From positions 39,294,157 through 39,358,156 of the forward strand of contig OX424562.1 in NCBI GenBank assembly GCA_949152475.1: 64,000 nt of DNA, written 5' to 3'. Below, in pieces: positions 30,230 to 59,900 of the stretch (the stretch's first letter is position 1; each line of letters opens with the position of its first letter). The DNA is from Terebella lapidaria (lineage: Eukaryota > Annelida > Polychaeta > Terebellida > Terebellidae). The notes beneath the pieces are model-generated. The model did not search any database. It saw only the letters and a list, made by a program, of their open reading frames with translations, and was not told the DNA's origin. The position numbers were made by a program, and so were the translations under genes.

Positions 30230-31245
30230 ACTTTAAGTAGTACAACAGCTCACGTTAATAACGAGTATATACATGTCCTCCTCTGTTGGTAAGCGCATCA
30301 TCGCATCTCCTTGGCACTGATGCCACGAGACGGTTAATCTGGTCTTGTGTGCCCATTCTTCTTGAACAGCCAACACCAGCTGCGCATGCGTGGCAGGAAC
30401 CGGATCCCGTTGTCTCACTCTACGATCCAGAATGTCCCACAAGTTTTAAATCCGGAGAATAAGCAGAATAAGATTTTGTGCTCTTCCAAGAACTCGCGGC
30501 ATACCCTGGCAACGTGAGGTCTGGCATAATCTTGCATAAATGTATGCTCTGTTTGCTGTACTCGTACTCGCACATGTGGATCAAGTATCGTGTCCCTGTA
30601 TACGACGGCTGTCATTGTTCCCTGGACATGGTTTGATCTCCATCCATGCGAGATGGCACCCCACATCATGACACCACCACCTCCGAAACGATCCACCTGT
30701 TGTATAGTACACAGACGTCTATGTACCGCTCTCCGCGTCGGAGTAAACCCGCTGGCGACCATCAGTCCTGTACAGATTGAATCTGGACTCGTCACTTAAG
30801 ATAGCCTGGCTTGCCAGACTCCAGTTTCTACGCTCACTAGTCCATTGGCGTCTGGCTTCTGTCAAGACCATCCCAGATGGATACGGTATGGCCGAATACC
30901 CCATCTCCCTGAGGCGACGGTCTGTGAACTGATTCCAGGATTGCGGCGCCCTGGGATCTCCCTAACAGTTTGTGTGGCAATCCTGAAGCGATCTCGAAGA
31001 TGCAAGATCCGGATACGGCGATCCTGGATCATCGTCGTCACCTAGGTTGGCCACTCCTTGGACGGTATCGAGATGACCCTGTTGCTTGGAACCTGGTCCA
31101 CAGTCGAGATACAGTCGACTGTGTGGTCGAGATACAGTCGACTGTGTGGTCCCAACTATCTCTGAAACCTCTCCTTGTCGTGTTCTCATCGTCAGCATCC
31201 CAATCGCCCGATCACGTAGTTCTGAAGCTAATCGTGGCATCTTGA
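30230..31245 (-). mobile_element. Broken Tc1-like (DD34E) transposase
   Basis: The minus strand reads, in several frames, as a Tc1-family transposase: start MPRLASELRDRAIGMLTM with a paired-like helix-turn-helix, a DDDDPGSPYPD-frame second half shifted relative to it, AILSDESRFNLYRTDG (first catalytic Asp), GGGVMMWGAISHGWRS, EHTFMQDYARPHVARVC (second Asp) and LWDILDRRVRQRDPVPATHA near the C-terminus. Frame changes separate these parts. At 30,430-30,450 the expected SPDLNPIENLWD is reduced to SPDL directly followed by a shifted NLWD-like stretch, so the catalytic Glu is gone. A 23-bp tandem duplication (AGATACAGTCGACTGTGTGG) lies at 31,104-31,151. It cannot transpose on its own. Confidence 0.85.
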
Positions 31246-31305
31246 CATGTCTGATTTAACAGTATTTGTACTTGGGGAAGGCGTGGGAGGTTCTCAGGCA
31301 CAAGT

Positions 31306-35000: not shown

Positions 35001-38000
35001 TAACCACAAAACTAAATCTCTATGCTCTGTTGTGTTCTTGTAAATACATTTTCGAGTTTTGTTCTTCTTCAAAGAACTGACGTCTACAATACAGATTGAT
35101 AGCAGTTCTAATGTCTGATGAATACGTATATGTATATGGGCCGCCTAAAACGAGTTGCATACATAAAAGAATTGCGATATCATAGATCGGGAGATGTGAT
35201 TTGATTGTGATGATGCATATCGCCGAGTATCATTTCAATATAATCATATCAAAAAATAATATTTAATATTGGCAGAACGTCAGCCAATATTTATGATTAT
35301 TATCACACACACTACGCTCGACTATACATATAGGAGAATGCAAATCCGATACTTATTCTACACCGGGATTTATTCTAGTATAATCTGATTTGTTGGATAA
35401 TATAATTTTTTGACTATAATGTAGGCCTAATGAAATGAAACTGAATCATGACACAAATCAGTCACTATACATTCGTTTCAATGTAGATATATAAACGGCA
35501 GAATTAATTTATATTCGACCAGTCGACCTGCACGTTAACGGGAAGTGGTATCACGGGGGTGCCGCGTTTAGAGATTATTTTTCATTACGAAGTATCATGA
35601 ATTTTGCTGTCAAAATTTCCGTATGCATCAGTAGGCTACACAAATACATCGGCCACACTTCCGTATCATTTACTAGTAAATAATGACTTTAAATACCTAG
35701 TTCTATCACCCGGGTATACTCATAAATCATGTTCAACTAAGCATTGCATTATTGCACTTGTCATTGACAGATTTCTCTGGAAACACGGAAAATCCGGGTT
35801 TTTTAATTATTGCATCTGAGGGTACTGTGTAGGTTTCGATTTTGTATGTGTAATATTTTGGCCCGTACAATAATAGTCTTTCGTCGTTTTTGTCACGAAG
35901 CCTTCTGATTCGTTTTTTATTTTATTTTGGCAAATTAACATTACACCGGGTGACAAATTCTCATTCAAGGTTTGCACCATTGCTCTACAATATTTACTTT
36001 TTCAAAGAATACTGTCTCTATGTTCAATAACCATTTATAAGTAATATATTCATTTGACCTGACTGGGATCAACAATTAATATCTATGCAAAATATATAAT
36101 AATGTTTTTGTGTCGACATGCATTGACACAGAGATGTATGTGTTCAGATATTCAATGATATGAAACAGCTCATTCATTATCGGAAATTCACATTTCATAA
36201 GAAGAAAACAGTAACTGTATAAAAAATATCTTATGAATAACGAATCTCACCTGGCCAATTTCAGAAAGAGGAGGGGGGTGGCGGGTGGACGAGATACAAA
36301 TATTTATTTTGAAGGCCTCATGACCAATAACTGCTACAGTGATTCATAAAGTGAAGTTTGTGCATATTCTCACCCGAAGCTTGATGGTTTTTTTAAAAAA
36401 AGCTGATGATGTGGTCGAGGAAAAATGCTCGGAAGACGGGCAAAACCTTTGTATCAGCCTCTACAAATCCAGTCATAACAAGACGTGGCACCAAGCGAAG
36501 GATGGATGCCAAGCTGTCGGGAAGCACCTGGCCAGGATAGAGAGCAAGGCCATCCAGGACCTTACTGACCGAGTGTTGGGTGCCGCCGCCGACCTCACCA
36601 GGAACTTCAGGGCCTGGGTTGCAGGGCAACGTTCGTTCAGCGATACACTTCAAACAGTTGACGGCGCGAAACTCCGTGAGTTGTTCCACCTTAAAGACTG
36701 AGCAGCATACTGATAATAAAGATCGGTAATTGATTTCAGGATCTGATACATTATGACGTTGATCAGCGAGTAATTGCAGTATCCATTGGGCCCACATCAA
36801 CATTCGCGTTGTCATGCGCTGTTAATAGCATTCATATTTGTGTAGTCTTTCTCGTGTGTTTCAGCTGGCGGTATCAATATCTCAAACATGCATAATCAGG
36901 GTGAGAACTGTTTGACAGCAAGTTTTTCAAATGGATATGTCGAGCTTCGTATGGACAGCTGTGATGAAAGAGATGGGGACTTCGACGTGATCTGCTATAC
37001 TAATTTAACAGTTGGTTAGTCTTTTTGTCACACAAATATCTACATCAACGAAATATTGGGAAATATTGAGAAATATCACCATAGTCGTGTCTAAGTAATG
37101 GAATATACATGGAAACGTAATAATATCATCCAGCTGTTCAAAGCATTCAATGTTATTTGAATCTAAGTTGCTCATTGTGTGCTCAAATGTGTTATAAACT
37201 TGATATCGTATTAGCTGGTATACCATTATATTAGTTATGGGGGAAAACGCACCAACGATCAACGGATACTCTGTGATCTGTCAAATGTAATCTGCTTAAG
37301 GAGAATGTACAGACCAGAGAAAGATGGTCGTGAATGACGAGTGCTACATAGCCCGAACAACATCACTTCCATCCAATGGTGAACAAAAAGACCCGGACTG
37401 GTTCAGGGCCCAGAACATGTGTCACAACATAGCAGGAAAACTGATCGAAAACCATACAGCAAGCATCTTGAAGGAATATCCCATGATAAATCAAATGTGG
37501 CTTGGATTCTCCCGCAAACAATGGACCTGGGTCCATCGGAATTATAACATGGATTCTGGTTCGTGTTTAGTCGTTGGAATGTCTATTCAGAATTGTCTAT
37601 TTGGTGAAAAAAGTATCAGGAAACAAAATGATACAGCTCAGTGTTGCCAGATAAGCGAGAGGTGCTAATAGATACTTATCAACACTAGAGTAAATCAAAT
37701 ACTGGTAACTGACAACCCCAAATGAACACAAAAATGACAAGAATGGACGATCATATCATTGTAGAGCTCTACAGTAAATTGGTACAGAATTGCTACCAAA
37801 ATATTCCAATTTGCTGTTGCTTTTGTTTCACTGTTTATTATCATTTTCAGTGTCTTTCATGAACTATTTCAATTGGATGATAGCTGGTGAAGGAGAATCC
37901 AACGAAACCAGTCTTTTGTGTGTAAATGTGGATCAGAAGGGAAAATGGATCACAAACTCATGTGATGGACATTTTGAGTACTATTTGTGTGCCAATGGTT

Positions 38001-39015
38001 CGCGTGAGTATTATTCATTGATTTGACCTTTGTGAAAGTTATGCATTGAGCGAATAGTATGTTTATGCTTTTTCAACTGAGGAGATGCATATTAAAAGTG
38101 ATGTTGTTTCTTTCAGTGTCGACAATGTCACCTGCAGCATCGACAACAGAACTGGTTCCAATAACTACAACAGATATCACCCTGACGACGGAGACCCCCG
38201 GCACAAGAACCACAAATCTGGAGACCTCTAGTTTTCAAATGACTTCTAGTGGGCAACATTTATCAACGGACAATACAGAGAAAGCTGGTACAGGAAGCAT
38301 AAAACATCTCAAGACTAGGGTCTATATTGTAAAAGGTTACACTGCGTTCATGAGGATTCACAATTGAAAATGGTGCTGTTTCTTTCAGTGTCATCAATGT
38401 CACTTGCAACATCGACAACAGAAATAGTTCCGATACCTGCAACAAATATCACCCTGACGACGGGGACCCCCGGCACTAATCTGGAGACTTCCACTTTTCC
38501 ACTGACTTCTAATAGACCACATTTATCAACAGACAAGACAGAGAAAGATGGTACAAAAAAGAAATATATCGAGTGATTGGGCTGTGTGTTTCTGGTTCCT
38601 TGACAATCTGTGCATGTACATTATTCATATATATCATGTCGCCCAATACCATGTTACAGATCTCCAACAAGAGGTCTGCAGCGAATACCAAGTAACTTCA
38701 GGTCATATGTATACTCTCTATCTGCAAGAGACATTAATTTGATTCACTGTTACTTGTTATACCTAGGAGCTGTCTCGTTTATTGATTTACTCATTTACGC
38801 TGGAACTGCCTGTGCTGGAGCAGCACCTCTCACTTGTGTTGTGGCTATCATTTGCATTGTGAGGTAAGCATTCGGTATAGGATGTGAATTGGCATGATGG
38901 AATAAGTGTGAATGCGACAACAGTTCTCTAATCAGTACATTTGTATGAATACAGACGAAGACAACGAGAAAGAAATAGAAGACGAGCCATTAACGAAGAA
39001 GTCATTCAATTGTAA
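32073..39015 (+). CDS. Two-CTLD, mucin-stalk, single-pass membrane receptor (9 exons, 454 aa)
   Basis: The exons are 32073-32124, 36403-36675, 36865-37014, 37313-37558, 37851-38003, 38117-38287, 38389-38550, 38767-38863 and 38955-39015; they total 1,365 bp, exactly 455 codons. Exon 1 is a signal peptide (MGISTLIYVLCVIWISL) with GTAAGT donor. Exons 2-3 form C-type-lectin-like domain 1 (KTWHQAKDGCQAVGKHLARI, AWVAGQ, GENCLTASFSNGYVELRMDSC). Exons 4-5 form domain 2 (DWFRAQNMCHNIAGKLIE, MWLGFSRKQWTWVHRN, LLCVNVDQKGKW, YYLCANG). Exons 6-7 are a tandemly duplicated Thr/Ser/Pro stalk, exon 8 a membrane helix (LTCVVAIICIV), exon 9 a basic stop-transfer tail (RRRQRERNRRR). The first seven introns are phase 1, typical of shuffled extracellular modules. 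The exon 4 donor (CTG|GTTCGT) is weak but is the one that keeps frame. Canonical EPN/QPD and WND calcium-sugar motifs are absent, so the ligand is unknown. An innate or cell-recognition receptor role is inference. Confidence 0.82.
33008..33900. repeat. Diverged tandem units in intron 1 of the lectin receptor
   Basis: Four diverged units, anchored near 33,035, 33,438, 33,650 and 33,815, share ATGTCACCACGCTTGTTTTC (with substitutions), then CATAGCC-TATTTATATCGACA and a CGTGCCTTGTA-like block. Spacing is irregular (about 165-400 bp), so this is an old array. No reading frame is conserved between units. Confidence 0.55.
34580..34845 (-). mobile_element. MITE family C, copy 3 (truncated), in lectin intron 1
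   Basis: Starting CCATAGACGTAGAATCAATA, it is the reverse complement of the right three quarters of the copy at 8.5 kb and closely similar to it; the rest is missing after about 34,845. Confidence 0.65.
34850..36400. other. Lectin receptor intron 1, remaining part
   Basis: A/T-rich intron sequence; no internal exon in phase 1 with good splice sites was found, and no repeat family was recognised. Confidence 0.4.
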
Positions 39016-45512: not shown

Positions 45513-47940
45513 CTAAGCCTCATACTCGTCCTCATACGTATCCACATTCCTCGTCAGCATGTAGTTGTCCATGTCGATGGAGCGACAGTTGTTGATGGCG
45601 TAGCGCAGTCTGTCCGCCATCACCTCCACGCTCGTGTACGGCGGCAGTCTCAGCTGGAAGAAACACGTCTGCGCCGTCGGCAGCCCGTCAGGAGCCTGCG
45701 GAACGGTGGCATGGCATCTTGTAAGTACCGGATTGGTAGTGCTTATATCAAGTCTGATCATCACATTATTCTATCTAACATGGAACACTTAGTGGTTATA
45801 TTTAATTTTATCTTCATTATACACAGTTGATAAATGTTGAGGATTGAACAACATATTCAAACAATTTTGTGCATAAATTTCTGTCTGTGAATATGCTCAG
45901 AGATTACTAATGTCAATCTACATTGTACACCCGCTGTTGAGCTTTATAACACATGGTGGGACAACTCGGTACGCACCCTGTCAACCTTCATGACCTGGAA
46001 GCGCTGGGTGATGTCGGCGGTGTTGGCTGGGAGACGAGACCGACCAGAGACAAACCTCATGAACAGGATACGCTCCTCATTCGTGAAGCCAGCCAGGATC
46101 TCCCAGAACCACTGAACCAGCGCGTGGCTCTCGTCCAACTCACGATACCTAGGGGTGAGATTTGGATGAATATTGGATTTGCAAAATACTTGTGTGTGGA
46201 TATCCTTTTTTTGCATCAAAATAGTTCAGAGTTATCTTGGTTTTTTTTCAAGATTTAAATTTGTTCGTGTTCATTGAACATTTGCAAAACAAATGTAAAC
46301 TCAGAAAGTCATACTGCATATTACCACTTGTAATGATATTGTTTTTATACATCAATACATTTATACATAAACTGTTGAATTGTTGCGAAGATTTGATTTT
46401 TTTTAAATTTTCAAGATACTTTTCGAACAGATGCTATTTCATGAAGCTGTACATGTATTACAGCCGATTGGTTGATGTCACAGACCTGACGACCTTCTGG
46501 AGGACGTCGATGGAGACGTAGGGCATTCCACAGGCGAGCTGCTCCAGACTGTGAGCCGTCATCAGGGAGAGGAGAGGCACCGGGACCAGCCAGGACATCC
46601 CCTCTCTCACCGCCAACACCTTTTGTAAGGACACGGGTAGAATATCATACATGTAATGATGTTGAATTTCATAGCCCCTGTGACATGTTCATCCCTATCG
46701 CCCAAACCTGGAGGTCCATCTCCTGAAGTCTATAGGCGATGGCCCGGTCCACGTAGTCCTGGCGATTCTGGAAGGTCAGTGGGATCGTACGGCCTCCGGG
46801 AACGATCGGCACGAAACGGCCGTCTGAACTCTGGCCTTCGAAACAGTCCAGCGGAATCACCTGGTGTTGGAGATGATTGAGAATAGACAATTATTGAACC
46901 ATGCCACAAGACAATTCTACAAGATTTGATGTTTTTGTCAAAATTCTGACATTATAGATATTTATATATTGAATATTCAAATGACTAAAATCAAGCTGAC
47001 TAATGTGTTGACTGGTTCAGTGAGCAGACCTCGTGGAAGGTCTCCTCCGTGACTCCGCTCTCATCGATAGTGGCAATACCCTTCAGATTCTGGATGTACA
47101 ACAGGTCCACCTGAAGAAACAACATGGTTCAAGTTAGTTTGCCCACATTCCCAGAGTAAGTGTTTGTTTACATTTCACGCTACTGGTGGGTTAGGGCACA
47201 TTCGTTGGATATTTACCTTGATAACATTTGAGCAAATGGATTGAAGATTGAAGTAAATGTTGATTAACACTTTTTCTTCACCCTAATAAGTTTCAAAATG
47301 TGTACATATGCACATATATTATGAGCCCTCAAGACAGTGTTGTAGCTCACCTCTTCCAGATCATCGGCTGTCAGTGGCATGCCAGCGAGTTTCTTCCACA
47401 CACAGGAGGCGAGACTCAGGTCCAGCGGCTTCTTGGTACGGATAGCCACCCCGATCAAAATCCCCAGGAACTTGAACAGTTGGAGGTCGTACTCGGAGGT
47501 CAGAGCTGGGTTCAGGAGGTACTGGTCCCGGTTGTACCCGACCTCATTACGGGCGTTAGGCGTCGGGATGAACAGAGGCACCACGCCTGTCTTCAGCTCC
47601 TGAGTGTCGTACAAAATTAACTTATTTTTGCAAAATGATGTAGACTTTACATGCCAAATTATTTGGCTTATTATGGTTCTCAACATCCAATGAATCCACT
47701 TTGTTTTTTCACCTGAATTTGACTCAATATAATGACTATATACAAATTTGTTGGGCTAATCAAAAGCTTCAAACCTGGCACATTTCTGTGATGGTGTCAT
47801 CAAAGACCCCGCCGGCGTCGTCAGCGCCCTCGCCGATCAGTTTGACCTTCCAAGCTCGGGATGGCAACCGCAGCTCCTCCGGGCTCAGCTGGACCACCTG
47901 CCGTGCCACCTGCACATAGATCGGCTTGCACCGCTTGCCT
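45513..47940 (-). other. HERC1: HERC1 HECT catalytic domain exons
   Basis: The exons, 5' to 3', are 47775-47940, 47351-47599, 47030-47110, 46708-46860, 46486-46619, 45977-46148 and 45513-45695. The first encodes the start of the HECT N-lobe ([20 protein letters not shown]). The next carries [11 protein letters not shown] and [17 protein letters not shown]. Later exons carry [31 protein letters not shown] and [20 protein letters not shown]. The last has the active-site cysteine in [16 protein letters not shown], followed by [16 protein letters not shown]. All positions expected for catalysis are present, so the ligase should be active. The extreme C-terminus, after the LTRNVD motif, is short and acidic (YEDEYEA). 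Phases run 0, 0, 0, 0, 2, 0 across the introns. No frameshift or missing core motif is seen. Confidence 0.96.
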
Positions 47941-50900
47941 CTGGGGACAAAGAGGATGGCATGATATAGTAGATGGATGGACAATGTTCAAGATGATTGT
48001 ATTGTGCATGGTAGTCATGCCAGTGTTTCTACTGTTTTCATTTCGGCACATGTATGTTGTATGTTAGAATGTGGTCTGTTTTGATACTTCAAATAGTAAC
48101 CATTAGCGATACATGTTTATTCCAGTTACAAGCAGTTCTTCATAGTATATATCGATGTTGTGACTTGGCATCCTCATCCTTACTCAACACATAATCCAAT
48201 ACCAGAAATCAATCTTACTTTGTAGCAAGTCGTTTGACGGTGATCTGTGGCCCGTAGTTTTTGCCCTGTACCATCGTCCTGCCCATAGACCTGACAAGAG
48301 GCAGTGTGTACACTCGCGCGGCTAGTAGATTCCGCAGTCGGCCCTGTGCCAATGCCTGGCAGCCACTCGAATAACGTGCTGTCTCCTCCTGAATATACAA
48401 GGGAGTTTGAAGATACATATGATAATATTGGGTCAGTTATTCATCTGAACCACTCCAAAGCATCACTACTAAACTAACTATATATACCATATGTAGATAT
48501 CCTCATATCTATATATCGCTTCACGGTGACAGACTGGACATTTGCGTTCAAGTAATATAAGACGTTGTTATGGCAACCATGCACTACCTGAGGTGAGTTG
48601 AGGTTGAGGAGACGCCAGCTTGCATAGACAAGATCGGAGAAGTGGTGCAGGAGGCGGAGTCTCGCTCTGATCGCGTCGACGCTGGTGTCGCGGAGAGCCG
48701 AGTACTGGCTAGGGACCTCCTGCGGTAGTCCCAGCTGGAGGTGTGAGTTGACCCCCGGGTTACGCTGGATGGGGGGCGGGGCAGTCCACGCGGCACTGTG
48801 GGTTCTCCCTGCCGAGATCTGGTGGATGAGCAGTTAGAATACAAATGTTGAACGATTAGATTTATTAATTTTCTTTGGATAATAGTCTTTGAACAGTGTT
48901 TGAGATTCAGTTTTTTGAGGATATACGTATATATCGTACCATGAACATTTTGAAGAAATTTCTAGGCCATTTTGTTCATATATTTCCAAGGTATCTCTAA
49001 GCTCTCCTACAATTTTCCTATGATTCATGTATATCGTGGCACACACCTGTCTGGCGTTCTTGCCGCCGGCCTCGTTGACGAGCTGTGGCTCCCGGACTGC
49101 GCTAGTGTGTCCCAGACCGAGCTGGCCATCCCCATTACTCCCCCATGCCCACAGCTCCCCGTCACTCGTCAGGGCAAGGGTGTGCTCCGCGCCCACCGCG
49201 ATATCCTCGATAAAGTGCCCTGCCAGCACCAACAACTGCTGCGGCTTGTTGTGGCCTCGAGCTCGCGAGTCCGGCTGGCCAATCAGCCGATCTGTAGGAG
49301 AGTTTCTAGTGATCTATTTCCAACGGTTTCAAGGCATTCATTATTTCAAGAATATTTCAGAATTGTTGTTTATCAAGTTAATGTAGCTGGTGGTAATCAA
49401 TCAGAAAATCCCAGCCACCTCAAGAACATGGCATCCAACACGTATACAGAATATACAATAGCATGACGCCTTAAATCGATACCAATGATCATCAAAGTTC
49501 CCGAGTGTCACACATACCCTGTCCCCAGGTGTAGACTTTGCCATCCTTAGTTAGCGCGACTGACAATTGCGTCCCACAGGCCACTTTCTTGATCCCGAGT
49601 CCACAGAGCGAATCCACTTTGGTGGGGGTGGACTTGGCGGTGGTGTTACCAAGGCCCAGCTTCCCGTAGTCTCCGTCCCCGAACGCCCAGACAGTACCGC
49701 CGTCCTGGGACACACACAGGGTGTGGTTCAACCCACAAGCAACCTGCAACAAGGGTTTTGTGATAGCCTCATCTAATGTTTGTTGCATCATATATACGGT
49801 ACCGAAGTATATTATGCATCTCTTACAACAAATAGGAAAATATTTTGTTGTTGTGTGGATATAACTCATGGGATGGTGCCATCAAATACTTGTACATCAA
49901 CTGGACTAAGTTTGTGTACAGTATGCAATCATGTCCTCCCTAACTTGAAACATGAACGCTTTGAAGTATCGTATCAGTTTAATATGTATACATTGCTCTT
50001 ACTAAAAGAAACAATATATATCCTGTATCATATATGTTAATATCTGACCTGACTGACGTGGTAGCTGTCGAGGGAAGTGACCTGAGCCGGAAGTTTTTTA
50101 TTGGAGGTCGTTCCCAGTCCGAGCCGGCCATAGTCACCATTACCAAACGTGTACAGCTTGCCGTCGGCACTGACCACTGCACTGTGCTTGAAGCCACAAG
50201 CCATCTGAATCGAACAAGTTTTTTTTTATCCAAGTACTGAGAGGTTTTTCTGCCTCCAAAACATGAGTGGTTACAGCAATGAATCAGATCAACAACAGTT
50301 CTATGTTAAATCAAGCAAGATCAGTCTGCTCAATACACACTACACATCAACAATTATCCATATCTATCTAGGCTAACTTGCAATTTCACAACTCATTCCT
50401 GACCTGCATGATCTCCTCGCCCTGCAGGAACTCTATCTGTCTGGGCCGGCGCTGGCGGTCGCTGTTCCCATGCCCGAGCTTCCCGTAGTCGCCGTCCCCC
50501 CAGCTGAACACCTCCCCGCTCTCAGTCAGCGCCATGCTGTGGCCGTCAGAACCCACCGACGTCACTAGCTGTGTCACCACGTAACCTAGCAACAAGGGAG
50601 AGACAAAGCTGTGACACCACGTAACCTAGCAACAAGGGAGAGACAAAGCTGTGACACCACGTAACCTAGCAACAAGGGAGAGACAAAGCTGTGTCACCAC
50701 GTAACCTAGCAACAAGGGAGAGACAAAGCTGCGTCACCACGTAACCTAGCAACAAGGGAGAGACAAAGCTGTGTCACCACGTAACCTAGCAACAAGGGAG
50801 AGACAAAGCTGTGTCACCACGTAACCTGGCAACAAGGGAGAGACAAAGCTGTGTCACCACGTAACCTAGCAACAAGGGAGAGACAAAGCTGTGTCACCAC

Positions 50901-53900
50901 GTAACCTAGCAACAAGGGAGAGACAAAGCTGTGACACCACGTAACCTAGCAACAAGGGAGAGACAAAGCTGTGTCACCACGTAACCTAGCAACAAGGGAG
51001 AGACAAAGCTGCATCACCACGTAACCTAGCAACAAGGGAGAGACAAAGCTGCGTCACCACGTAACCTAGCAACAAGGGAGAGACAAAGCTGTGTGACCAC
51101 ATAACCTAGCAACAAGGGAGAGACAAAGCTGTGTCACCACATAACCTAGCAACAAAGGAGAGGCAAAGCTGTGTCACCACATAACCTAGCAACAAGGGAG
51201 AGACAAAGCTGTGTGACCACATAACCTAGCAACAAGGGAGAGGCAAAGCTGTGTCACCACATAACCTAGCAACAAGGGAGAGACAAAGCTGTGTCACCAC
51301 ATAACCTAGCAACAAGGGAGAGACAAAGCTGTGTCACCACGTAACCTAGCAACAAGGGAGAGACAAAGCTGTGTGACCACGTAACCTAGCAACAAGGGAG
51401 AGATAAAGCTGTGTCACCACGTAACCTGGCAACAAGGGAGAGGCAAAGCTGTGTCACCACATAACCTAGCAACAAGGGAGAGACAAAGCTGTGTCACCAC
51501 GTAACCTAGCAACAAGGGAGAGACAAAGCTGTGTCACCACGTAACCTAGCAACAAGGGAGAGACAAAGCTGTGTGACCACGTAACCTAGCAACAAGGGAG
51601 AGATAAAGCTGTGTCACCACGTAACCTAGCAACAAGGGAGAGACAAAGCTGTGTCACCACGTAACCTAGCAACAAGGGAGAGACAAAGCTGTGACACCAT
51701 GTAACCTAGCAACAAGAAGGACAGTGTTGGTTCACAGACTGCAGTAACCATGGTACTATGCTGCTTCAGTTGGTGACAGAAATAATGTAGTCAAATCTGC
51801 TCCAGTAAGAGATCAGCTGGCTAGTTGTTGGAAAATGTTGCGTCTCGCATGTTTACTTTACCTTGTAGTGCTGAGAGCAGTGTCAGCGTGTGCAGGTCGT
51901 CCGAGTTCCCCTGTCCAAGTCTCCCGTAGCTTCCTTCACCGCACGCCGACACGGAACCATTGGCGTGGATCACAAACGTACAGTTCTGACCACACACGAT
52001 CTGGAGAGTAAATGATTTGACCATTGTAATGCAAAGAACTACTCCGCAACGCATTATAACATGTAGAAACAGCTGACTTTGTTTGGTGTCTAGAAAAGTA
52101 TTGTTATTTATTCTTATTATTACAAGTTCATTTTTTATTGGTCTCGTTTACTGATTTGATCATTGTTATTTCTGGATATGGCCCGTATATCCGTAGATCT
52201 TGTGCAGACATGATAAAATCAATTCATTACTTAGAATTTGTTTCGTATGTTCCCATTGTCATAAACACCATTTAATATACTGTAAAACGACTAATTTTGG
52301 CGGACGATTTATTTGGCGGATTTGGCGGTGGGGGAAAACCGCCAAATTAAATCGCCCCCAAATAACATGGGGCTCAAAACTGCCAAATTTAATAGCCGCC
52401 AATATTAGATGTTTTACAGTACATATTCCACACTGACACACACCTGGTGAGCGCTGGAGAAGGAGGGCGTGAGTTTGGGTATGAGGACGTTACGTCCGCT
52501 CTCACACAGCTGTCCGTGGCGGCCCCCGCCCCACATGTATACGTCACACCGACCGCCCAGCTGCCAGTCCTCCGGGCGCTGTGCCGACCACGTTACAACC
52601 TGCTCGTCCATCACCGCACTCCACGCACCGTTGTCCTGGCAACAAAGGGTCGAAACGATCATGGGTCAATATACATAGGAGCAGAGCATACACTTAGCTG
52701 TAGACACCAGTTGGGATAATGTGCTTCGATACACAGCAAAGTGGCTTGTGAACCATGTTGATATTCAAACTCATTTTAACATGCAGAAAAAATAAACAAC
52801 ATGAAGTGTTACATTTAAGCAATGGCTTTCACAAACGTTCAGTACAGTCAACACTTACGTAAGGGTCCTTATCGTAGACCATCTGCGTGGGTTCCGCCAG
52901 GGATTTGAGGAACTGTCCAGGGAAGGTTGCACGCTTGCTGAGGGCCTCCGCCGACTGGACTGTCATGCTGAAGTTCTGTAGCCACTGCCACTCCTGAACT
53001 GAACACTTGAAACCTGTGATAGGTATCAATGGTATGGATTGTTTGATCGTCATATCATCAACGTTATACAATCAACCACTAATTACTGAATATATAATAC
53101 CAACATGGTAATTGTTAGTGAAGAGCACTGTGGTCAGTATCAGAAGTTCCTCATGATTTTGACAGATGCTCCATGACCGTGGGTGAACGAATTCATCCAC
53201 TCACAGAACATGGACCGTACTGAGCAATGGAGATTTCAGTCAGACATCAATCCATGTCTATATGAGGCAGGACCACTCACCGATGGCTGGGGCGGAGTGC
53301 GGTGGCTGGACCTGCACACAGAGCACCCTATCCAGGCCAAGACCCACCGCTAGAGATGCCAGGCATTGCAGGTACGGGCTGTGGATCAACTGGTCACCAT
53401 TCCCCACGTGTGGCTGGAGGGTCAGGATACGTTTGTGAGATTGGTGTTCCAGAAACAATTTTTCACATAACTACAATGAATACATGGTTGCTTCATTTCC
53501 CTTGGATAACTGATGAGTTCATACTTTCTTTTTACGAATCACAAGTAACTCCATAATTTTATCATATGAAGCCTGAACTATGGTCACTATCTTTTGTATG
53601 AAGCTAACAGTCTTCAAATTTTACTTTATCATCATAATGTTGATAATTTTGCACACATGTATTGATATTGGAATAAAATCACACACAGACGTGCAGTGTT
53701 GATTCGTACCTTCTCATACATGTACTGTTCCTGCAGCAGGAGAGGCATGCGGAGGAGCAGAGCCTTGAGGCAGGGAGCCTGGTGCAGTCCGACCACGCCC
53801 TGATCCATCAGGCTCCGGCGGCTAGACGCCAGAACCTTGTGCTTGTGGTAAAAGTCTGTCGTGTAGTGCAAGATCTGTACATCCTACAAGTGGGATAGAT

Positions 53901-56900: not shown

Positions 56901-59900
56901 TACAGCCGTCCATCAGTCCCTTGTGCTGGGGCCACGTGAGGGCCGTCACCCAGTGAGGCTGGACGTCCAGGTGACCACGACCGCCTGACAGAGAGGAGGG
57001 GGGGGGGGGGGGGGGGTTAAAAAAGCAACTTGGTGCTTTTTCTTGTGATATATTTATGTACTTGGTCCAAACAACCAAATTTTTTTTCCATATTTTTTAA
57101 CTACATTTTGATATTTGTTGTCCCTCACTGCCTATTTTGCACCCAATTTCAGATGTGTCCCAAGCTGACATTTTAACAAATTAAATGATCAGGACGGTCC
57201 AATTTAAATGTTCAGGATAGTCCAGGATATTTATACGAAAGTTAGGCTTCAAATCAGATGAAAAATTGTTTACATTTTCAAATTCACAAGGTTAGTGTTG
57301 TTGTTTTTTTCAATATGTCTTGAACAAACACAGAAGCCAATGAAACCAATTTCAACCCAAATCCACGGGTACCTTAAAGCATTCAAGGGGTATAAGAATA
57401 TGAGTAGATATAGATAAGGAAAGTAGAATCACACAGGATTTACTGGTACTTAGCCTGAAATATACACCTTATACATAAAGTGTGCAACTAGGATACAAAA
57501 CCACCCGAAATACTCACAGAGATTTGCTTAAAAGATATAAACGAATATATATCAGCAAATAAAGTATACAAAATATGGAAGATATACAAAAGCATATACA
57601 TGATAATATAATATAATTGTGTACAAAATATACAATGCAAAACACTGATCATGGTGATTTTGTTAAAATATCATATATTATTATGCTGGTTGGGGAAATA
57701 TATTTCAAACGAGATGAGAGGAAAGGTAGCACTGAGTTTATATTGCAATTTTTTTTCGGTTTTTCTTTTTTAAACACAACCACTGTATACTGTATATAGA
57801 TCTAGCAGCAAAAGTGAAACTGTAAAAGTGACACAGGTCTGTCACCAGAAAGCAGTCTCACAAGAAGCAGGACGCAGAACTTTGTGAATCACAAACAAGC
57901 AGCTTTAAAGCAGCTATACTTTGCCATGCTACATCAACACAGGGCTATATCAGCCACTGACCTGCCAGCGGCCAGATGTTGATCATGTTTTCCATGGCAG
58001 CGGCGATGAGTTTCCCGGAGTTGCTCCAGGTCAAGTGACCGAGGACGAGGCTCGCGTCCACTTCCTCATTGACCATCTTCTCGCCACAGTTGAACACGCA
58101 GGTCTGCTGCAGGAACTGGTGTGTCTTGTTGGGAAGGTTCCAGACCCGAATGGTTCTGTCCTGTCCACTACAATGTATAATGGCATGTTGGATCTTATAA
58201 GTTGTATTGAGATCCACAGACATTTCTATATTTTTTTACGTATATTTCAAACTTATTTTCTTAAGATGTCTTAAGATGCAAACCAATCTTAAGATGCAAA
58301 CCAATAGCACATTATTCCATACAAAGTACATACACTGTGCATGTTCAGAAAGCATCTAAATCAAATCTTCCATGATATAACACCACTGACCACGTTGCCA
58401 GGAGGCTTTTCTTGCCATTGAAGAGGCAGGCAGTCACTCGGTGCTGGTGAGCTTCAAGTTTTGAGGTAGGACACGGCGGTATGTCCCCCGAGAGGTCCAC
58501 CTGGGTCTCCACCCCGCGACCGGTCGCCTGGGCGGCGAGGGTGGCCACCAGCTGCTGAGCGGCCCACTGACGGTGGTCGGACCTCAGGCGGGCGGACAGG
58601 ACACATGCCGACAGAGCATTAGCCAGGTGCAGCGGGCTCATCTTCGGCTCAGTGGGCGACGGTAGAGGGCTGGTCGCGCCTGGGCAAATACACAAAACAT
58701 GATGCAATGTGTGATTTTTACTTAGGACTTTTTTTTCCCCACTGGGACAAAGCCACTGCAGATTTATATGATGATGTGACACTGACAGACCATTATTTAT
58801 ATAACTAGACGTTCTGTTGCTACTGGCCCGAGAGCTATTGTAGGTGCAGCAGGTCACATGGTTAAAAAATATTATGGCCAAATCGTCACCCCAAGATACA
58901 GTGATATATTTGTTTGAGCTTAGACTTGATATTGGCCTTGCAAGCCTACCATACCTTTGCCATCGTGCTGGCTGCCTCTCCCAAGTCCCGTCCCCCCAGC
59001 CTTGGCTAGCAGTCCTACGAGAGCCTGAGTGACGGCAAAACTGGGACTGGCCAGAGCCTTCAGCTCACAGGTGCTTGTTGCCTGGTTGCTGCGACGCTTC
59101 AGACAGGAGAACGTGTCCTCGATCAGAGAAGTGTTGAGACCCATGGCTGCTGTCACCAGCTCCTGGTGAAACATCAAAACTTTCAAATCATTTCTTGAGA
59201 TCTAATGTCATCGACCGCTGTGACTGACCTGCATTCATTATCGACTGCTATGAGAGATTCCAAGGAACTCACCTGTATTCATCACTGACCGCTATGACTA
59301 ACCTGCATTCATTATCGACTGCTATGACTGACTTGTATTGTATTCATTATCGACTGCTATGACTGACCGCTATGAGTGATACCCAGGAACCGACCTGTAT
59401 TCATTATCGACCGCCATGATTGACCTGTATTCATCACTGACCGCTATGACTGACTTGTATTCTTTATTGACCGCTATGATTGACTTGTATTTATTATTGA
59501 CTGCTATGACTGACTGCTACGAGTGATACCCAGGAACTGACCTGTATTCATCACTGACTGCTATGACTGACTTGTATTTATTATTGACCGCTATGACTGA
59601 CCTGTGTGCAAAGCTGGACAAGGAGCCTGGATGCTGAAGGGTTGTCCTGAGCCAGAGCTCCGATGGCGGCACTGAGGTGAGCCAGTTGTTGTCCGCTGTT
59701 GGTGCCACACTCAGGGCCTGCCTCAGACTTGACTTTCTGCACGGCCGTGGGGGCATGGGAGGGAAGCGACTGGCGATGTTTCTGACCAGCCGCACAGAGA
59801 CACATCAGCTTGACGATAAGCCGGATATCCGCCAGACCCATGGACTCCAAACCTGCCGAGAGGCTGCATGCTGAGCCACTGGGAATGCAACACAAATTAA

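Follow-up and report, generated by a model that had tools for sequence, protein, structure and literature searches.

A minisatellite built from splice-acceptor copies in the HERC1 gene of the annelid Terebella lapidaria

How does an intron come to end in dozens of copies of its own splice acceptor, and which of these copies would be used? This question is raised by a stretch of 64,000 nucleotides (nt) from the polychaete Terebella lapidaria (GenBank assembly GCA_949152475.1, contig OX424562.1, positions 39,294,157 to 39,358,156), referred to here as the window, in which one intron of the gene HERC1 terminates in a 40-nt minisatellite. An earlier note on this DNA had described the array as an amplified acceptor and had suggested a role for it in splicing. 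The array, comparable arrays in myosin and HECT-domain genes of the same assembly, and the explanations that can be offered for them are discussed below. The array is probably a mirage, which is a minisatellite that arose through repeated local tandem duplication across an intron-exon boundary and has been tolerated.

The HERC1 acceptor array

By homology the gene is HERC1, with an RCC1-like domain followed by HECT within one gene. Thirty exon blocks were joined and 27 of the 29 gaps between them gave a splice parse, which stops short of additional 3'-terminal exons and of exons beyond the window. The junction of the upstream exon with position 50585 aligns ungapped to human HERC1 (PDB 4o2w; E = 1.7e-213), and the joined protein has no insertion relative to the human one. 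RCC1 repeats were found by Pfam in the joined domain, and three HECT matches lie downstream (C8:39339735-39341689, window positions ~45579-47533; C8 is the contig of the window). Homology and the splice parse predict that the productive acceptor is the AG at 50587-50586, the copy proximal to the exon.

Tandem Repeats Finder (TRF) calls the repeat at 50567-51716, with a period of 40, 28.8 copies and 96% matches. Cut at the acceptor and read on the minus (sense) strand, the array as assembled consists of 28 full units, each with 0-3 mismatches to the consensus GTTACGTGGTGACACAGCTTTGTCTCTCCCTTGTTGCTAG, whose initial 19 letters are the initial 19 letters of exon 50585-50404. Each unit repeats the 19 coding nt that open the exon and carries with them a polypyrimidine tract and YAG. 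Over the coding part, 12 of the 28 units match the exon exactly and the remaining units carry 1-2 changes. The units end in TAG (26/28) or CAG (2/28), GT directly follows the AG in 28/28, and the branch-point-like GTGAC is present in 19/28. The upstream flank also terminates in CTAG, which brings the total to 29 acceptors, the true one and 28 extra ones.

A pattern search at up to 3 mismatches returned the identical 28 units and no others in the window (shuffles, n=100, mean 0). In the 761.6-Mb assembly, a search with the exon and array (297 nt), which skips very common words, found a single locus with all 13 matches inside it. The array is represented by one haplotype. Its length is likely to differ between individuals, as minisatellites tend to. 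These results confirm what had been claimed about the amplification of a HERC1 acceptor some 28 times as a 40-bp minisatellite, and the ungapped alignment through the junction does the same for the gene, exon, phase and true acceptor. Some details change: unit and exon have 19 coding nt in common instead of 17, and the row of about 28 CTAG acceptors stands as 28 extra copies but amounts to 29 in total, with two units ending in CAG.

When the upstream exon is joined to each of the 28 alternative acceptors, a stop is met in 28/28 cases, 77 or 89 nt past the junction; the normal join, as read from the genomic sequence, keeps an open frame. The frame shift that the earlier note had expected from the second acceptor is thus seen as an early stop, but it is not restricted to that copy: alternatives 3, 6, 9 and so on units away fail too, because the unit holds a stop in a shifted frame.

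The closest known counterparts are the mirages of lancelets, found in Adh3 and in the globin genes BflGb6 (at the acceptor) and BflGb9 (at the donor) (PMC3087553) and in PGBD5 and troponin C (PMC3902484); these and the other papers cited are drawn on here in excerpt. They are described as minisatellite-like, often AG/GT-bearing and variable in copy number, with regular splicing undisturbed (PMC3087553, PMC3902484), and with units of 10-72 and 150-160 bp (PMC3087553). By structure the HERC1 array is a mirage: it is a tandem repeat of minisatellite scale, its unit extends across the intron-exon boundary, and AG/GT is found in many copies.

Splice-site arrays in other genes

Myosin genes were sampled in 20 regions (177.5 kb) from 13 of the 16 listed loci outside contaminant-like contigs, picked before their repeats were viewed, and arrays were counted as one class at a period of 20-100, at least 2.5 copies and a score of at least 100. 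Ten distinct arrays of this class are present, and eight of them lie on splice sites, with a different unit each time. The eight fall in three of the 13 loci, and six clearly copy exon sequence (Table 1). The HERC1 array, previously taken as a peculiarity of that gene, is instead one of a class in the genome. One 4.8-kb myosin intron (L025:6484-10000 plus L026:1-1282; C8:40140483-40145281) consists almost wholly of 22 donor copies followed by ~54 acceptor copies. In another gene, which bears five splice-site arrays and which we take to be a class-I-like myosin, ~157 units with CAT^GTGAGT (the caret marks the junction) occupy nearly all of a 6.9-kb intron (L019 2325-9211). The first 63-nt units of L020:1184-1546 are open in frame (VQMGGGGGSMYHFLNQGGQSK-like), so that splicing from a later donor would lengthen the myosin head by units of 21 residues.

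HERC1 itself has a second array, on the donor side of another exon. It has only ~4 exonic nt in common with exon 59878-59602, and no boundary copies were recovered in it at up to 4/20 mismatches; it lies against the boundary and is not clearly a copy of it. In the HERC1 upstream regions L034-L035, no arrays of the class were found. Three arrays of the class were found in four HECT-gene loci, none of them confirmed at a splice site. One of these loci has a 76-nt array with CTG^GTGAGTAC in its consensus unit, which was traced for >16 kb from its exon-side end and lies next to a presumably UBE3C-like HECT gene. Overall, 10 of 15 arrays of the class are at splice sites, a count that includes both window HERC1 arrays (2/2), identified before sampling; the 76-nt HECT array is among the 15 but not among the 10.

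Table 1. Repeat arrays and associated exons (plain positions refer to the window, those with an L number to the locus so labelled; the caret marks the splice junction)
Feature	Location	Strand	Unit and copies	Exonic nt in unit	Basis or remark
HERC1 acceptor minisatellite	50586-51705	minus	28 full 40-nt units		TRF, cutting at acceptor, pattern search
Flank with 29th, intron-most acceptor copy CTGTCCTTCTTGTTGCTAG	51706-51740	minus			only final part resembles unit
HERC1 RCC1-like-domain exon	50404-50585	minus			human HERC1 alignment and splice parse; first 19 nt copied in units
Upstream HERC1 exon	51862-52000	minus			splice parse, human HERC1 alignment; ends AAG^GTAAAG, phase 1
HERC1 donor-side array	59267-59601	minus	~11 degenerate 30-nt units		TRF and splice parse; starts at donor CACAG^GTCAGTCATAGC
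HERC1 exon upstream of donor-side array	59602-59878	minus			splice parse; ..LLVQLCTQ^
Myosin donor array	L025 6464-7339		40 nt x 22	20
Myosin donor array	L020 1184-1546		63 nt x 5.8	40
Myosin donor array	L022 2755-3712		64 nt x 15	~46	with mismatches
Myosin donor array	L019 2325-9211		44 nt x 157	~10
Myosin donor array	L019 1228-1676		32 nt x 14.5	~16	with mismatches
Myosin acceptor array	L025 7338 to L026 1320		74 nt, ~54 copies	33
Myosin donor array	L020 6291-7439		43 nt x 26	only ~4-5
Myosin acceptor array	L020 2857-2937		26 nt x 3	only ~4-5
Myosin-sample arrays away from splice sites	L020 4974-5039; L028 3132-3261
HECT-locus array	L036 79-724				beside no recognised exon
HECT-locus array	L036:3516-8000, L040, L041		76 nt, >16 kb		near end 14 nt before acceptor of HECT-gene exon
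Repeat within coding frame, HECT-gene region	L039:5077-5163		21 nt		GAPAAAS-like

The concentration at splice sites was compared with random placement confined to introns, counting arrays within 10 nt of either intron end. For the myosins alone P(at least 7/9) = 6.4e-7, and with HERC1 added P(at least 9/11) = 2e-8, values in which intron limits were set partly by eye, only myosin and HERC1 arrays enter (HECT loci left out), the L025/L026 pair of 40-nt and 74-nt arrays enters as a single case for which 60 nt of free space is nominally assumed, and L028 is given a nominal 0.02. A scan independent of repeat finders gave the complementary view. Among the 27 parsed HERC1 introns it found the acceptor array alone (1/27), with copies for 35 of 520 interior control words, the array introns themselves included. 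Among 140 myosin exon segments, a list that omits four other array-bearing exons, three donors and one acceptor had at least 2 copies, the word at L020 7418-7681 being an internal GT of that array instead of the donor itself. Arrays thus touch few splice sites, roughly a few per cent of them, yet most arrays of the myosin sample touch one.

Several other repeats and contigs were observed alongside these loci. Within a neighbouring HERC1 intron, an inverted-repeat-like TTTGGCGG element at 52260-52430 was seen by eye and is perhaps a small transposon. Two dispersed tandem satellites, of 147 nt (L014, L033, L034, L035, L038) and 134 nt (L023, L028), are located in or near unrelated genes. Ten contigs with Myosin, HECT, Sec1 or dynein matches (C150, C172, C185, C186, C249, C370, C397, C401, C428 and C432) have in-frame TAA and TAG, and C172 also TGA; they look like a contaminant or symbiont with a ciliate code.

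Origin of the array and competing explanations

If the HERC1 array is a tolerated mirage, as is probable, it would have grown by slippage or unequal exchange, and its block-wise variation is as expected under such growth: units 19-21 recur as 24-26, and units 13-18 have one common change. New copies would arise on the intron side, with the exon-touching copy retaining the working site and the others leaving with the intron, so that growth would be nearly neutral. Exon definition and exonic enhancers are established ideas for splice-site choice. The spliceosome would be expected to choose the outermost acceptor, adjoining the exon, because that copy alone abuts the exon body. Misuse of another copy would lead to an early stop and probably to nonsense-mediated decay.

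A number of observations weigh against this account. In a scoring model built from the other 26 parsed introns of HERC1, the true acceptor scores 6.5, a value shared by 21 of the 28 copies, exceeded by 5 and not reached by 2; the true acceptor is therefore without a local sequence advantage over its copies, although 18 of the 26 other HERC1 acceptors score below 6.5. In addition, the two units adjoining the exon have GTGTC instead of the branch-point-like GTGAC. With equal scores and GTGTC beside the exon, exon-side context or the decay of wrong products would have to decide the choice, and use of the exon-proximal acceptor is itself a prediction from DNA. Copies in lancelet mirages could serve as cryptic sites (PMC3087553). 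Finally, the clustering at splice sites (8/10 myosin arrays) exceeds what pure tolerance would lead one to expect.

This clustering suggests that splice junctions seed minisatellites. A broader proposal, tentative and on balance doubtful, is that splice junctions are preferred birthplaces of minisatellites throughout the genome of this annelid, and that introns lengthen at their ends through duplication of the splice sites located there. R-loops, a composition step or polymerase pausing at exon-intron boundaries would then seed tandem duplication, and introns would sometimes grow from both ends, as in the myosin intron of 22 donor and ~54 acceptor copies. Against the proposal, array edges were no closer than chance to 199 loose homology segments, with 3/10 within 40 nt (random mean 2.99) and 4/10 within 100 nt (random mean 4.99), in an array list with the L025 pair merged and the L026 part apart. 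This comparison is judged uninformative, because the tolerance is broad and because, in the stricter segment list, four array-bearing exons are missing and the segment of a fifth extends into its array.

Among the alternatives to tolerance, regulation of splicing survives best but is unlikely. Competition among acceptors would divert some HERC1 transcripts to decay, with the productive fraction governed by copy number. The locus does offer 28 additional acceptors, of which 26 match or exceed the true one when scored with the model from the gene itself, and each gives an early stop, and the repeat units of human IFI6 act as extra donors in real use (PMC4526556, citing Turri 1995). However, conservation of the copied splice dinucleotides does not exceed that of other positions. 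They are intact in 28/28, 21/21, 37/38, 148/148, 14/14, 10/10 and 4/4 units of seven arrays, counting units fitted without indels, which omits about a third of the units of the 74-nt, 32-nt and 63-nt arrays, and they are no less variable than random unit positions (P = 0.31 for HERC1, 0.31-0.82 for the six others). Neither decoy decay nor signal conservation is apparent in the copies. Similar arrays are found in unrelated myosin genes, and lancelet mirages are reported without disturbance of regular splicing (PMC3087553, PMC3902484). The RNA fold of the array end (266 nt) shows no unusual structure (z = +1.5). The suggestion of the earlier note that splicing could be buffered, competed for or tuned by the array is thus unsupported, given these dinucleotides, the equal scores, the ordinary fold and the lancelet cases.

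Intron gain, in which AG/GT-bearing tandem copies convert exon sequence into a new intron, is a proposal made for the globins of lancelets (PMC3087553), and for other genes it has been demonstrated or discussed (PMC4974935). As an explanation of the HERC1 array it is very improbable, since the locus shows neither a new exon nor a new intron, there is no insertion relative to human HERC1, and the copies lie within one intron. Recursive, self-correcting splicing is similarly hard to credit. A wrong acceptor, YAG^GTTACG or close to it, would rebuild a 5' splice site and be respliced until the exon copy is reached, for which the GT after AG in every unit speaks. The donor rebuilt at the false junction (CAAG^GTTACG) scores only 1.2, second lowest against a range of 0.6-13.1 for the 26 other parsed donors, so that a good 5' splice site is not regenerated; the intron's own donor is modest as well (3.2). 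An assembly artefact or a grossly wrong copy number is the least probable explanation: tandem arrays are difficult to assemble and one lancelet mirage came out wrongly assembled in a draft sequence (PMC3087553), but the point variants of the units follow a non-periodic order, similar arrays exist at several independent loci, and 1.1 kb is generally within the span of long reads.

Known systems and wider meaning

Both the annelid and the lancelet arrays are tandem duplications across the exon-intron boundary, at either intron end, with AG/GT in many copies. They differ in phylum, in their frequency among minisatellites and in copy number, which is higher in the annelid (28 in HERC1 and ~157 in a myosin gene, against 6 and 3 in BflGb6). 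In human IFI6 (6-16), minisatellite units also carry splice signals, but these are donors and the extra sites are functional and in use (PMC4526556), whereas the HERC1 array consists of acceptors and is known from DNA. The tandem AG^GT-junction copies of PMC4974935 resemble the HERC1 units, which are likewise tandem AG^GT copies; at HERC1 there is no new intron, and the copies are instead inside an existing one. Earthworm metallothionein genes are annelid genes with large intronic minisatellites, described however as lying within intron 1 and not as copies of a splice boundary (PMC12783039). Among the matches listed in the open-licence literature, no annelid mirage was found. The HERC1 array belongs by its structure to a known but little-known kind; its phylum, the numbers of copies and the concentration of arrays at splice sites are the apparently new features.

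Some further observations concern the rest of the window and the assembly. Window frames at 30233-31255 and 36324-38026 are, from their translations, what we take to be transposase-like and C-type-lectin-like. No match to the GFP family or to the haemocyanin family PF14830 was found in the assembly; control genomes likewise gave none, which makes the GFP result a weak negative. The mitochondrial contig (C438) carries on one strand cox1, cox2, cox3, nad6, cob, atp6, nad5, nad4L, nad4, the small and then the large rRNA, nad1, nad3 and nad2, with proteins named from translations and atp8 not identified. This order shows the four shifts relative to the bilaterian ground pattern that are listed for annelids and their kin (PMC2639372), which places the organism among annelids in the wide sense. 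A lancelet origin of the DNA, considered because mirages are known from lancelets, is rejected on this gene order and the missing GFP family.

A working acceptor accompanied by dozens of almost equivalent ones, or a donor so accompanied in other genes, makes splice-site choice directly testable: as the sequence around the sites is near-identical, position, exon context or decay must discriminate. The most interesting question raised is why minisatellites sit on splice sites. If they are truly concentrated there, the birth of minisatellites would be tied to splicing or transcription, and such arrays would offer a way for introns to grow and be gained in animals other than lancelets. If splice junctions are indeed hotspots, the occurrence of these arrays in an annelid and in lancelets would point to a way of lengthening introns that recurs among animals.

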